Source: Clostridia bacterium (GTDB taxonomy: Bacteria > Bacillota_A > Clostridia > Oscillospirales > CAG-382). From it: 6,936 bases of DNA. Shown here piece by piece: positions 2,284 through 6,936 of the stretch. The DNA lies in NCBI GenBank assembly GCA_017517985.1, contig JAFWWX010000011.1:1-6936 (forward strand). Reading direction: 5' to 3'. The first letter of the stretch is position 1; the number at the start of each line of letters is the position of its first letter. Both the position numbers and the translations under genes were made by a program. The notes below the pieces were generated by a model that worked only from the letters and a program-made list of their open reading frames with translations, did no database searches and had not been told where the DNA came from.

Positions 2284-5200
2284 TTGGCAAGTAAACTGCA
2301 AATTGTAACTGCCATATTCAATGACGAGGTTAATAAGGCTACGGAAAGTCAGCAGAATTGGACTTCATTTTTGAGAACGGCAGCAAATAACTTTAAATAC
2401 AGTTTCCCTGACCAAATCCTTATCTATGCTCAAAAACCCGAAGCTACGGCTTGTGCGGAAATCAGTTTTTGGAATGAAAAGTTCCACCGCTGGGTAAACC
2501 GAGGTGCGACTGGTATTGCTCTGTTAAACTTTACGGGTAATAATCCTAAACTTCGTTATGTTTTCGATGTGTCGGATACCAATTCAAGACAGAACATTGA
2601 CATCCCTTCTTGGCAGGTCGAAGAACGATACGAAGCCGAGATTATCGAAGCTCTTGAAAATGCTTTCGGCGAAATTGGTAGAGGCTCACTTGCTTCAATC
2701 ATTGATGATACCGCACAGAATATGGTTGACGATAATATCCTTGATTATCTTTACAACTTGGATGAAGCCAAGTACGGCAGTTTCCTTGAAGATTTTGATG
2801 AGGATAATTTAAGGTCAGTGTTGAGAAATACTCTTGTCAGCAGTATCGGATATATGATGATGACGAGGTGCGGAATAAATGCTGATGATTTCTATGACCC
2901 CGAGGATTTCAAAGACCTCTATAATTTTAACACTCACGAAACAATAATCGCATTAGGCTCTGCTACAAGTGAAATAGCCGAAATGGGACTTCGTGAAATT
3001 GAAACAACAGTAAAAGCTCTTCAAAAAGAAGAAAAAAATAAAAATCGCACATTTGTCAGTTCATATGATTTCGGATATGATGAGGGTGCAAAGAAAAAAA
3101 CAGACACCGAAAGGAGAAATGAAGATGTCACAGATAACTTACAGACAGGTCGGAGATTACAGAATCCCGAACATCACTCTGTCAGCGGAGGAGAAGAACG
3201 CTACACTTGGCAAGTACGGATTGATGAGGAAGAATTACCTGATGAATCACCGGAAAGTGAAGTTCAACACACTTCTGATGACGGGCGAACTGATGAAACA
3301 CCTGCTTCAGACGGAACAGGAAGCACAGCAGATGTTGGAACAGATAACCGAACAGATGATGAAATCCGAAGGAGTGACGGAAACCCTGAAAGAGACCGAC
3401 CAGATGAGGTGGGTGCAGATGATGAACAACATCAGAGCATCAGCCGAGGAAACGGTACTGAAGGAACTGATCTACAGCTAAGCAATCACGACTTCGATGC
3501 ACGTTGGAACGGTATCGAATATTTCCACCAAGATAAAGAAAAAAACGAGCTGATTAAAACATTTTTGGCTCCGCATACAGAAGAAATCGCTATGTTCTAT
3601 GAAAGTCATCCCGACAAAAAAGAACGTAGCGATTTTATTATGTCTTTCTTTAATTCTGCACCGTATGAAATCACTCTCTCCAATGGTGTAAAAGCAGGAT
3701 TTGAAGCCTATTCCGATGCCATAAGATTATGGCGTAATGACGGAACTGAACTTCGTGAAGCGTGGCAAAAATGGTTTCAGATTGAACGAAGCGTTTTCGG
3801 ACTTATGCTTATGGAGGAATGGACAGAGCCGCAGGCTTTGCTTTTGCCGGGTGTTGAAAAACAGATGGAACTTATCGGCACGAAAGTAAATAACGAGGCA
3901 CCTTTGTTTCTTCCTCAATCTGCTGTCGATTATGTGCTTTGTGGCGGTAGTGATTTCAGCGAAGGCAAAATGCGTATTTACAGGCAATTTACAGAAAGTC
4001 TTTCTCAAGAAGAAAATATTAAATTTCTTAAAAACGAATACGGAACAGGCGGTCATTCAAATGCTCTCCCCGGAAGTGGATTTTGGGAAGGTCACGACTC
4101 AAAAGGTATTGAAATATCTGACCATTACAGTGTTCCTCCAAGACGAGTTTTGTTGAAGTGGAATTATGTTGAAAGCCGTCTTTCGGCACTTATAAAGTCT
4201 GACAGATACTTAAACCCAAAAGAAAAGGAAATGTATCCGCAATGGCTTGAAAACCGACTGATAATCGAAGAAGAATGGCGGATTGAAAATGAAGTCCGTC
4301 AGTTACTCAGAAATGCCCCTGAAGAAAAGGAACAACCTAAAGAATACAGGTACGAATACAATCTCGGAGATACGGTTTATATCGGTGCAGATGAATATAC
4401 AATTATTTCACTTGAAGACCCCGTTATACTCAGCAACATCCAATATCCTCTTTTCACGGAAGAATTTTCAAAAGCAGTATTTGAGAAAAGAGTAAGAGAA
4501 AATCCTGCAAATAATCATTTGAGAGTAGAAGTTGATGTTGAAAGACCTGCTGTGAATGATGAAGCTGAAACAGAAATTGACGAAAGCAATAAACCCGATT
4601 TCTTGCTTAAATATGAGCAGGTGCAAAAGGAAAATCCCGATAGTGTAGTTCTTCTGCACACAGGAGGATTTTATAACGCATTCGGCAAGGATGCCGAAAT
4701 TCTTTCAATGCATACTCACTATACAGCACCCAGAAAGAACCTTTACGGTAATGTTTTTACACCTTGCTGTCAGATTCTTGACTTTAATCTGAGTTATTGT
4801 GTTAAGGAACTCAATGCACAAAACATTGATATTGTAGTAATGTCATTGGATAAAGGTGTAATTGACAGATATTCCGCTACTCCTATATTGGATGAAGTCG
4901 AGATTCCCGAAATCACAGAAAGTAACCGTAATAATTTCTTGGATGAATACAATGAGATAAAAGCTGACAATCCCGATTCAGTTGTTTTATATCAGGTCGG
5001 AGATTTCTTTGAAGCATTCAATGATGATGCAAAAACTCTGGCAAGTTCGCTTCAACTTGTTCTTACCTCAAGAGCTGTAAACGATAATGAAAGGGTACCA
5101 ATGGTTGGTTTCCCTGTTCATAGACTTGAAGCATATCTTGAAAATATCCGAAAAGAAAGCAGAGTAGTCATTTCGGCAATTCCCGATGGTGAAACTGCAA

Positions 5201-6936
5201 GAAAAACATTTCGGATGCCTCAAATTGGTGAAAACAGTGAACTTGAACCTATTGAAAAAGCAAAAAAACTGATAGATAAATTCTGTATTAAAGAATACGG
5301 TAAAGGTGCAGATTTTAGCGATATGAAAAATATTGAAATCGCTTACACCACCTTTACTGATGCAGAAATTCCCGTTCAGGTTTCTGTAAATCTTGTGGAT
5401 TACAGAATTGACAGATTCATAGACAATAACCATTATGACAGCCGAAGCTATAACAATCTTGAATCATTGATTGAATATGAACTTTATGGCTTGGATTTTG
5501 ATGATTTAGTCTATATTCCCGATGAAGTTTTTGAATCAAAGACATATACGAACACAGGATTGGATTCTGAAGTTACCGGCAAAGAAGTAACGAATGAAAG
5601 AACACTTGCTGAAAGACTTGTTGCTTTTTACAGAGATTTTGATTTCTACGGTTTCAGAGATACCCTTGAAATCGGCGAGTCAGAAAAAGATGCCGCAAGT
5701 AAACTTGCTGCTGACCTGCAGAATCCGAAATCAATAGACTCGGTTATTGCTCAACTGAAAAGCATAGTTGAAGAATCAGAAACAGATGATAAAAATATTG
5801 CTGAACAGTTAATAAAGGAATTAGAGAGAGAAAAGGAAAAACTTTCTGTTATTCCTGATTCAGAACTCATCGGCAAAGAGGTAATAATTGACGGTACGAA
5901 ATTCGTTATTGAAAAAATCGACCCAGTATTCGGTGATGTTTCAATGCGTGACACCTCTGTTCTGTACCCTATAAATAGAGTTGAGAAAATAGGTCGTATC
6001 CGTGAGCTGATAAAACAGCAGACAGCACCAACCTATTCAACAGAAAAAGTTGCGGAAATACCCACCGAAGAAAGCGGACTTCCCTTTGATGTTGTTTTAC
6101 AGACAATACGCACGGAAGAACCTGCTCTTACTCCGACAGTATGGGAAGAAAAAAAAGAAAAGGTCACAACACTTCATCCCACTGTTCCCGACAGTGAAAA
6201 ACACAATTTCAGAATAACCGATGATAACCTCGGTGTCGGCGGTGCAAAAGAAAAATTCCGTAACAATATGGCTGCTATCAATCTTCTGCACGAACTTGAA
6301 TTTGAAAACCGTCTTGCAACACCCGAAGAACAGGAAATACTCTCAAAGTATGTTGGCTTCGGCGGTCTTTCAGATGCCTTTGACGAAACAAAAGAGAATT
6401 GGGCAAATGAATATAAAGAACTTATTGTTACGCTCTCTCCCGAAGAATATGCCGCTGCAAGAGAAAGTACACTTACCGCTTTTTATACTCCTCCTGTTGT
6501 TATCCGTGCTATGTATGAAGCACTCGGCAATATGGGATTTGAAAACGGTAACATCCTCGAGCCTTCGTGCGGTACGGGTAATTTCATAGGTATGCTCCCC
6601 GACAAGATGAGTGAAAGCAAATTCTACGGTGTTGAACTTGACAGCTTAACGGGCAGAATTGCACAGCAGCTTTATCAGAAATCGGGTATTACAGTACAGG
6701 GTTATGAAGAAGCAGCATTACCCGACAGCTTTTTTGATGTTGCGGTAGGTAACGTTCCCTTCGGGCAGTTTAAGGTTATCGACAAAAAGTACGACAAACA
6801 CAACTGGCTCATACACGATTACTTTTTCGGCAAGACCCTTGATAAAGTACGCCCCGGCGGTGTAATAGCTTTTGTTACTTCATCGGGTACTATGGACAAG
6901 AAAAATCCTGCTGTAAGAAAGTATATCGCACAAAGG
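2284..6936 (+). CDS. Giant polyvalent protein: ArdC-like, MutS-I-like and N6-adenine methyltransferase-type domains (3' end outside window)
   Basis: The frame stays open for 1551 codons to the window edge. Residues 20-113 resemble the ArdC N-terminal ssDNA-binding/antirestriction domain (FLRTAANNFKYSFPDQILIY, then W.NRGATGIALL). Residues 260-399 are an acidic, low-complexity linker that overlaps tnpV. Residues 403-520 and 580-660 (FLKNEYGTGGHSNALPGSGF) are modules known to me from this class but without function. Residues 773-859 and 885-969 are two MutS domain-I-like units. Residues 1000-1079 (IEIAYTTFTDAEIPVQVSVN) and 1195-1240 are further accessory modules. The methyltransferase region starts near 1310, with FYTPP at 1400, SAM-binding EPSCGTGNF at 1426-1434, the acidic GVEL at 1449-1452 and a catalytic-position NVPF at 1490-1493. 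In relatives a SNF2-type helicase follows. The protein is cytoplasmic and probably protects transferred DNA from host defences. Domain calls are by eye; the role is inferred from the family. Confidence 0.92.
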   Translation, partial: MASKLQIVTAIFNDEVNKATESQQNWTSFLRTAANNFKYSFPDQILIYAQKPEATACAEISFWNEKFHRWVNRGATGIALLNFTGNNPKLRYVFDVSDTNSRQNIDIPSWQVEERYEAEIIEALENAFGEIGRGSLASIIDDTAQNMVDDNILDYLYNLDEAKYGSFLEDFDEDNLRSVLRNTLVSSIGYMMMTRCGINADDFYDPEDFKDLYNFNTHETIIALGSATSEIAEMGLREIETTVKALQKEEKNKNRTFVSSYDFGYDEGAKKKTDTERRNEDVTDNLQTGRRLQNPEHHSVSGGEERYTWQVRIDEEELPDESPESEVQHTSDDGRTDETPASDGTGSTADVGTDNRTDDEIRRSDGNPERDRPDEVGADDEQHQSISRGNGTEGTDLQLSNHDFDARWNGIEYFHQDKEKNELIKTFLAPHTEEIAMFYESHPDKKERSDFIMSFFNSAPYEITLSNGVKAGFEAYSDAIRLWRNDGTELREAWQKWFQIERSVFGLMLMEEWTEPQALLLPGVEKQMELIGTKVNNEAPLFLPQSAVDYVLCGGSDFSEGKMRIYRQFTESLSQEENIKFLKNEYGTGGHSNALPGSGFWEGHDSKGIEISDHYSVPPRRVLLKWNYVESRLSALIKSDRYLNPKEKEMYPQWLENRLIIEEEWRIENEVRQLLRNAPEEKEQPKEYRYEYNLGDTVYIGADEYTIISLEDPVILSNIQYPLFTEEFSKAVFEKRVRENPANNHLRVEVDVERPAVNDEAETEIDESNKPDFLLKYEQVQKENPDSVVLLHTGGFYNAFGKDAEILSMHTHYTAPRKNLYGNVFTPCCQILDFNLSYCVKELNAQNIDIVVMSLDKGVIDRYSATPILDEVEIPEITESNRNNFLDEYNEIKADNPDSVVLYQVGDFFEAFNDDAKTLASSLQLVLTSRAVNDNERVPMVGFPVHRLEAYLENIRKESRVVISAIPDGETARKTFRMPQIGENSELEPIEKAKKLIDKFCIKEYGKGADFSDMKNIEIAYTTFTDAEIPVQVSVNLVDYRIDRFIDNNHYDSRSYNNLESLIEYELYGLDFDDLVYIPDEVFESKTYTNTGLDSEVTGKEVTNERTLAERLVAFYRDFDFYGFRDTLEIGESEKDAASKLAADLQNPKSIDSVIAQLKSIVEESETDDKNIAEQLIKELEREKEKLSVIPDSELIGKEVIIDGTKFVIEKIDPVFGDVSMRDTSVLYPINRVEKIGRIRELIKQQTAPTYSTEKVAEIPTEESGLPFDVVLQTIRTEEPALTPTVWEEKKEKVTTLHPTVPDSEKHNFRITDDNLGVGGAKEKFRNNMAAINLLHELEFENRLATPEEQEILSKYVGFGGLSDAFDETKENWANEYKELIVTLSPEEYAAARESTLTAFYTPPVVIRAMYEALGNMGFENGNILEPSCGTGNFIGMLPDKMSESKFYGVELDSLTGRIAQQLYQKSGITVQGYEEAALPDSFFDVAVGNVPFGQFKVIDKKYDKHNWLIHDYFFGKTLDKVRPGGVIAFVTSSGTMDKKNPAVRKYIAQR
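3111..3116 (+). promoter_or_regulatory. RBS of the nested tnpV gene
   Basis: AAGGAG lies 8 nt before ATG 3125 and only 2 nt before ATG 3119, so 3125 is the likely start. It sits inside the giant ORF, where it is read as part of Glu-Arg-Arg codons. A strong, well-spaced site here argues that the nested frame is translated independently. Confidence 0.75.
3125..3481 (+). CDS. tnpV: TnpV-family transposon-encoded protein, nested in the giant ORF (+1 frame)
   Basis: This 118-residue protein matches my knowledge of the TnpV family along its full length. It has an N-terminal YRQVGDYRIPNITLS segment, LGKYGLMRKNYLMNHR at 28-43, an amphipathic middle helix, then EGVTETLKETDQMRWVQ (82-98), MNNIR (100-104), AEE (107-109) and the family's C-terminal LKELIYS. 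The usual TnpV length is about 110-130 residues, so it appears complete. TnpV was named from Tn4451-type clostridial transposons; its biochemical role is not established to my knowledge, although a small DNA-binding or excision-accessory role is plausible. The start at 3125 follows AAGGAG at the best spacing; 3119 would add two residues, and a TTG at 3053 is less likely. The gene lies wholly within the giant ORF one frame over, and the giant frame is open throughout. G/C-ending codons are frequent, as expected because its third positions are the giant frame's first positions. Confidence 0.88.
   Translation: MSQITYRQVGDYRIPNITLSAEEKNATLGKYGLMRKNYLMNHRKVKFNTLLMTGELMKHLLQTEQEAQQMLEQITEQMMKSEGVTETLKETDQMRWVQMMNNIRASAEETVLKELIYS
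4600..5190 (+). repeat. Tandem degenerate repeat: two MutS domain-I-like units in the giant protein
   Basis: Unit 1 (4600-4860, residues 773-859) and unit 2 (4936-5190, residues 885-969) both begin F-L-x-(K/E)-Y-(E/N)-x-(V/I), followed by x-NPDSVVL. Then come TGGFYNAFGKDAEIL in unit 1 and VGDFFEAFNDDAKTL in unit 2. Unit 2 continues with LTSR and VPMVGFPVHRLEAYL, which is strikingly like the mismatch-binding domain I of MutS. Unit 1 keeps the opening but has diverged afterwards. The DNA of the two units is well diverged, so this is an old protein-level duplication, not a recent DNA repeat. Confidence 0.75.

Follow-up and report, generated by a model that had tools for sequence, protein, structure and literature searches.

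A tnpV gene nested in the linker of a giant open reading frame in a Clostridia bacterium and its relatives

Here, we report a locus of a Clostridia bacterium in which one stretch of DNA appears to be used twice on the same strand, as the linker of a giant protein and as a complete gene for a TnpV protein. The window is the whole stretch analyzed, 6,936 nucleotides of contig JAFWWX010000011.1. Almost every relative examined shows the overlap as well, which suggests that both frames matter. The best explanation, which we put at a probability of about 0.88, is an old, conserved, nested same-strand dual-coding locus that specifies the giant linker and, from an internal start, a complete TnpV. A first-pass annotation of the window had proposed such an overlap and had suggested checking it by a profile search, by a survey of stops and ribosome-binding sites in the linkers of relatives, and by a test for purifying selection on the +1 frame; the proposal came through all three. 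Earlier publications, in the portions available to us, describe TnpV, SNF2/COG4646-type giants in the Tn5252 and Tn1549 families, and TnpV-carrying elements inserted into snf2 genes (PMC9815147, PMC7168690). No published report of a tnpV nested in a giant was found in the open-access text available to us.

Layout of the locus

The features discussed are as follows (positions in the window).

2284..6936, + strand: giant open reading frame (ORF) with a TTG start; it ends at 10986, read from the fetched continuation of the sequence, and encodes 2,900 amino acids (aa)
2284..3051, + strand: giant residues 1 to 256, a conserved, folded N-terminal domain, used as the query to find relatives
3052..3573, + strand: giant residues 257 to 430, predicted to be disordered (pLDDT <50 throughout) and spanning the whole overlap
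3109..3116, + strand: GAAAGGAG, putative tnpV ribosome-binding site, recognized from the sequence; also giant codons GAA AGG AG. (Glu-Arg)
3125..3481, + strand: tnpV, nested in the +1 frame, 118 aa, PF14198, opposite giant residues 281 to 399; recognized by Pfam match and conservation
6221..6589, + strand: chance +1 ORF of 122 aa in the same giant, used as negative control; not conserved

Both plus-strand frames are open over positions 3125 to 3481, as first annotated, and the giant frame is open from its TTG at 2284. The 118-aa product is a TnpV, matching PF14198 over model positions 1 to 111 of 111 (E = 6.1e-43; 145.8 bits, against a cut-off of 27), which bears out the claim of a full-length family member. 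The AAGGAG motif noted with it occupies 3111 to 3116, 8 nt before the ATG at 3125; a second in-frame ATG, at 3119, follows the motif by just 2 nt, which makes 3125 the more plausible start.

The giant combines the folded N-terminal domain and the disordered linker with two MutS-I-like stretches, SNF2/helicase domains, and weak matches to methyltransferases. SNF2-rel_dom (2.3e-9), ResIII (2.2e-9), and Helicase_C (4e-6) all match above the Pfam cut-offs in this one ORF; both methyltransferase matches (Eco57I, 7.6e-4; Methyltransf_25, 9.7e-3) fall under the curated cut-off. MutS domain I is matched twice, at residues 885 to 963 and in another stretch (Pfam, E = 3e-26). Residues 1 to 256 have no Pfam match, to ArdC or otherwise, at an E value of 0.01; ArdC-like is the name that annotators have given to some Listeria plasmid relatives.

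Within 7 kb 3′ of the giant lie genes for a DUF3991/Toprim protein and a MobA/VirD2-like relaxase (PF03432), and roughly 10 to 15 kb 5′ of it are those for a T2SSE-type ATPase, a type IV leader peptidase, and an RcpC-like protein. With these neighbors, the locus looks like part of a conjugative or mobilizable element. In its domains, the giant resembles the SNF2/COG4646-type giants of Tn5252- and Tn1549-family ICEs, with which it shares SNF2 and helicase C-terminal domains as well as a place next to relaxase and conjugation-type genes, its methylase matches being weak; a nested tnpV is not mentioned in the part of that source available to us (PMC7168690).

Recurrence of the overlap in relatives

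Searches with the giant N terminus gave 254 distinct hits, 60 of which were excluded (hit ending before model position 225, or fewer than 700 nt beyond it). The remaining 194 distinct relatives come from the higher-scoring portion of longer or capped lists. In 187 of them, a TnpV gene occupies the +1 frame and lies entirely within an open giant ORF: 68/71 from the source genome and its family, 42/45 from the class, 63/63 from named genomes (drawn from the best 80 of at least 538 relatives), 9/10 from viral contigs, and 5/5 from plasmids. These relatives are related by descent, so the counts are not independent, and since the fetched loci are the better-scoring ones, divergent giants are under-sampled. 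Within this range, the overlap is conserved and not accidental, as proposed, and the +1 frame of the linkers is open with TnpV rather than broken by stops. The seven exceptions are two loci with a giant stop before or inside tnpV (L021 and L154), one with a frameshifted giant (L045), two whose giant terminates soon after the N-terminal hit (L075 and L273), and two open giants without a nested copy (L167 and L174). Two loci that are not part of the 194, L074 and L077, likewise carry tnpV in a different frame relative to the giant N-terminal hit.

The tnpV detector was derived from TnpV sequences found in this analysis; the Pfam TnpV model scored over its cut-off in 10 of the 10 more divergent nested copies tested. 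Among these 10 were the plasmid copies of Listeria seeligeri p60 (6.4e-17), Enterococcus faecalis pKUB3006-2 (8e-14), and Ruminococcus albus pRUMAL02 (1.7e-7), and the same frame relation is present on plasmids of Virgibacillus (Bacilli), Selenomonas (Negativicutes), and Anaerococcus (Tissierellia). The extra plasmid copies extend nested tnpV to Listeria, Enterococcus, Selenomonas, and Anaerococcus. TnpV itself is patchy, with a match in 23/348 genomes drawn from the phylum and 0/14 control genomes; in the loci taken after the phylum scan and two recombinase searches, 12/26 TnpV were nested.

Since the same giant contains a chance ORF of 122 aa, length by itself proves little for positions 3125 to 3481. 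This control ORF has no Pfam match at an E value of 0.1, and the region has at least one stop in its frame in 62/62 relatives (found among the 80 named loci). Elsewhere in the giants of 64 relatives, +1 stops are absent from 4/459 tiles of 119 codons. Judged on the sequences, homology and conservation set the nested ORF apart from chance.

The internal start recurs as well, with GAAAGGAG 8 nt ahead of the tnpV ATG in relatives. A Shine-Dalgarno (SD) sequence lies 5 to 12 nt before the start codon in 163/187 nested genes, and in 127 the spacing is exactly 8 nt. GARAGGAG occurs near the tnpV start in 51/71 loci, in giant phase 0 every time. AGG is the Arg codon in 50/53 Glu-Arg pairs near the tnpV start (counting those with AG, TC, or AA next) versus 82/701 Arg codons elsewhere; in a larger set, its share of Arg codons is 52% over the 45 nt preceding tnpV, compared with 13% farther upstream.

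None of eight annotated plasmid records lists both genes intact. The gene table of that plasmid collection is incomplete, so these counts describe the table. The expectation that pipelines would miss the nested gene holds for five records, which list the giant alone (Listeria, E. faecalis, R. albus, Virgibacillus, and Anaerococcus), but the other three err the opposite way, listing TnpV with the giant missing (Cohnella) or starting only after TnpV (Monoglobus and Selenomonas). On the Cohnella herbarum plasmid, an opposite-strand hypothetical protein is annotated at 9289 to 9852, over the N-terminal part of the unannotated giant; this call is perhaps spurious and a consequence of dropping the giant.

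Selection on the two frames

In 59 aligned loci, diversity by giant codon position was.449/.369/.608 upstream and.543/.488/.649 downstream of the overlap, and diversity inside the overlap, by TnpV codon position, was.369/.308/.482. Within the overlap, the giant is therefore least diverse at its third codon position (.308) and most diverse at its first (.482), a pattern opposite to that of the flanks. Substitutions were also classed in 70 disjoint pairs (mean identity,.867) as rates per possible change. Changes silent in TnpV and altering the giant occurred at.112 (1,469/13,100), those altering TnpV and silent in the giant at.027 (439.5/16,060), those altering both at.031, and those silent in both at.131 (82/628, few changes). 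The 4-fold depletion of TnpV-changing substitutions (.027 versus.112) is the purifying selection that had been looked for on the +1 frame, and it argues that TnpV is strongly constrained and the linker mostly in its stops and composition.

That only the giant is real, with the TnpV frame a fossil or a by-product of a constrained linker, is accordingly hard to credit. The giant is annotated alone in five of the eight plasmid records, and no SD sequence was recognized 5 to 12 nt upstream in 24/187 nested genes, which would fit such a reading; the reversal of codon-position rates in effect refutes it, and the depletion of TnpV-nonsynonymous changes, the recurring SD sequence and ATG, and the upstream tnpV of the two giants without a nested copy (described below) all speak against it.

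The giant frame carries a different mark. Over the 71 nested genes defined by an in-frame giant N terminus upstream, it has no stop in any, whereas 38 of 39 other TnpV genes have between 1 and 14; the sole stop-free gene among the 39 belongs to L045, whose giant is frameshifted. The giant frame acquires a stop where T is the last base of a TnpV codon and AA, AG, or GA follows. In such contexts, T stands at 1/6,629 sites over 193 nested genes versus 376/1,727 in 52 standalone genes, and the single nested T belongs to L154, a broken giant. (A count of 0/6,819 used a nested set chosen for openness; 1/6,629 is the unfiltered count.) TnpV-silent changes that create a giant stop had a rate of.010 in nested pairs versus.212 in 8 standalone pairs. 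Synonymous recoding of nested TnpV gave a mean of 5.9 giant-frame stops per gene with giant codon usage (13/12,400 recodings stop-free), 7.2 with standalone usage (1/12,400), and 2.7 with the nested genes' own usage (695/12,400).

Composition is biased too. Relative to standalone genes translated in the corresponding phase, the linker is depleted of Cys (0.0% versus 3.5%), Tyr (0.8 versus 4.4), and Lys (1.1 versus 4.7) and rich in Asp plus Glu (19.8% versus 7.0%). Its mean net charge is −12.2, where the three recodings lead one to expect +1.1 or +4.2, or −8.4 with the nested genes' own usage; since that last value is already acidic, part of the bias goes with codon usage. The description of the main frame as an acidic linker was thus accurate. 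The linker motif RPDEVGADDEQHQ does recur, as the first-pass annotation had supposed, but we read it as mostly the shadow of a conserved TnpV stretch, DQM.WV..MNN. Stop avoidance and compositional bias indicate that the giant frame is under selection; apart from these, the amino acids of the linker appear weakly constrained.

The converse reading, in which only tnpV and separate flanking proteins are made and the openness of the giant across tnpV is accidental, is about as improbable as a TnpV fossil. It could draw on the three plasmid records with a missing or truncated giant, yet it must face stop-free giant frames in 71/71 nested genes against stops in 38/39 others, the near absence of T from 6,629 contexts, and the depletion of Cys, Tyr, and Lys, and it is refuted unless some unknown force bars T before AA, AG, or GA solely in nested genes. 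The substitution and composition data together indicate that both frames are under selection.

Predicted structures differ accordingly between the frames. The AlphaFold2 model of TnpV (58-row alignment) has an N-terminal hairpin followed by helices, with a mean pLDDT of 88.4 and blocks at 93 to 98 after residue 30. In the model of giant residues 1 to 430, 10-residue blocks reach 77 to 97 up to residue 250, the chain is folded to about residue 255, and the stretch of the linker in the overlap falls to 31 to 41. One stretch of DNA is thus predicted to yield a disordered acidic linker in the giant frame and an ordered helical protein in the TnpV frame. No clear relative of the TnpV fold was among the fold matches, which says nothing on whether the fold is new.

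Standalone copies, origin, and function

Two intact giants, L167 and L174, lack a nested tnpV and have one upstream on the same strand (loci L370 and L371). The L167 genome has a sole PF14198 match, approximately 110 to 150 nt before the giant N-terminal match; in the L174 genome, one of five matches lies about 1.4 kb before the giant. These upstream genes score 93 and 83 bits (Pfam) and have 5 to 13 stops in their other two phases. In both genomes, tnpV appears to have moved rather than been lost, and an upstream copy where the nest is empty is, in our view, the strongest sign that TnpV and the giant are associated, as a linkage seen in two cases.

Standalone genes are common (52 of the 253 distinct TnpV in the analyzed set), each with 1 to 14 stops in the giant phase, and in some TnpV-bearing genomes the search found no giant match. 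The source genome has 10 TnpV matches, one of them nested; seven others, L002 to L008, have 6 to 14 stops in the giant phase. When 10 flanking proteins were scanned with each library, the flanks of several standalone genes (L002, L004, L005, L086, L099, and L105) were found to adjoin defense-type genes: TIR plus an Mrr-like nuclease, AbiEi, an AriA-like ATPase, PDC-S01, and a type II methyltransferase. Two standalone genes, L119 (G106:C8) and L358 (G964:C21), have no giant N terminus in the locus, yet they have high GC3 as in nested copies and retain the nested codon signature, with T at 1/30 and 1/27 giant-stop contexts, respectively; they are possible recent escapes from the nest. By eye, not by profile, L358 adjoins a relaxase-like ORF and L119 lies a few kilobases from a serine-recombinase-like ORF.

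As to which frame is older, we lean somewhat toward tnpV having come first, the giant linker being overprinted on it, for example when neighboring genes fused through tnpV. This order is suggested by the contrast between TnpV, which is ordered and strongly conserved, and the linker, which is disordered and conserved weakly; divergent standalone TnpV also exist (L349 and L351). Against it, a single fork among the nested genes (support, 84/95) takes in 28/32 standalone genes. The opposite course, in which TnpV arose inside the giant linker and later escaped as the tnpV of mobile elements, seems to us the less probable of the two. Nested diversity looks deeper than standalone diversity in the TnpV tree (137 rows, 114 columns; midpoint root only, with no outgroup root), L119 groups with nested genes (fork support, 89/90), both L119 and L358 keep the nested signature, and both intact giants without a nested TnpV show tnpV outside. 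However, branches are long, the bootstrap is not settled, the root is a midpoint, and with 52 genes tested, one or two low T counts may be chance. An ordered fold would also be unusual here, as newly overprinted frames seldom encode one. A wider picture, which we offer tentatively, is of an ancient, phylum-wide pair in which nearly every giant of the family nests a tnpV, the two being partners in transfer, and some or all free-standing tnpV of mobilizable transposons and defense islands are escapees.

For the locus itself, we infer that both frames are translated. The giant message would probably be read twice, from its own start to give the giant and from the internal SD sequence to give TnpV by internal initiation. 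The disordered linker may be the cheap frame that makes the overlap affordable; the data fit a linker of low cost, since a wide range of hydrophilic, stop-free strings would do. We favor a role for TnpV in conjugative transfer, either as a partner accessory to the giant or as its regulator, as their linkage suggests.

An unlikely alternative role is that of an excisionase-like factor kept in a transfer gene, which would couple excision to transfer. Excisionases of the lambda Xis kind have a winged-helix fold; none was among the fold matches of TnpV, which leaves room for a shared fold. A role of Tn4451 TnpV in excision was postulated from homology with lambda Xis, according to the part of the source available to us (PMC3158075), and TnpV-carrying cargoes are described as inserted in snf2 genes, 10/17 of them with integrase and relaxase genes (PMC9815147, likewise available in part). 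Nested copies are found, however, on plasmid records (Cohnella, Listeria, E. faecalis, Selenomonas, and Anaerococcus), where excision need not be required, and the 149-kb contig of the window, which may be incomplete, has no PF07508 or PF00589 match. With these two observations, the balance leans to a transfer role, although the element is perhaps incomplete.

The window copy is like the TnpV of Tn4451/Tn6104-type mobilizable transposons in its full-length family match and in having its own SD sequence and ATG, as standalone genes do; it differs in being nested in the +1 frame of a giant, a phase in which the 52 standalone genes have stops. The embedding of one protein gene fully within another has a counterpart in nog1/citC of enterohemorrhagic Escherichia coli, which is antisense and reported, in the part of the source available to us, as recent and confined to closely related genera (PMC4683798), whereas the tnpV overlap is sense, spans several Bacillota classes, and involves a named Pfam family.

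The overlap recurs across Bacillota classes, and its many natural copies, with standalone genes for control, allow the cost of dual coding to be measured. Some public annotation lacks the giant or shortens it, and the overlap may be the reason. The little-understood TnpV family is thereby linked to transfer genes of conjugative elements through the overlap, and which of the two frames is older becomes a testable question.
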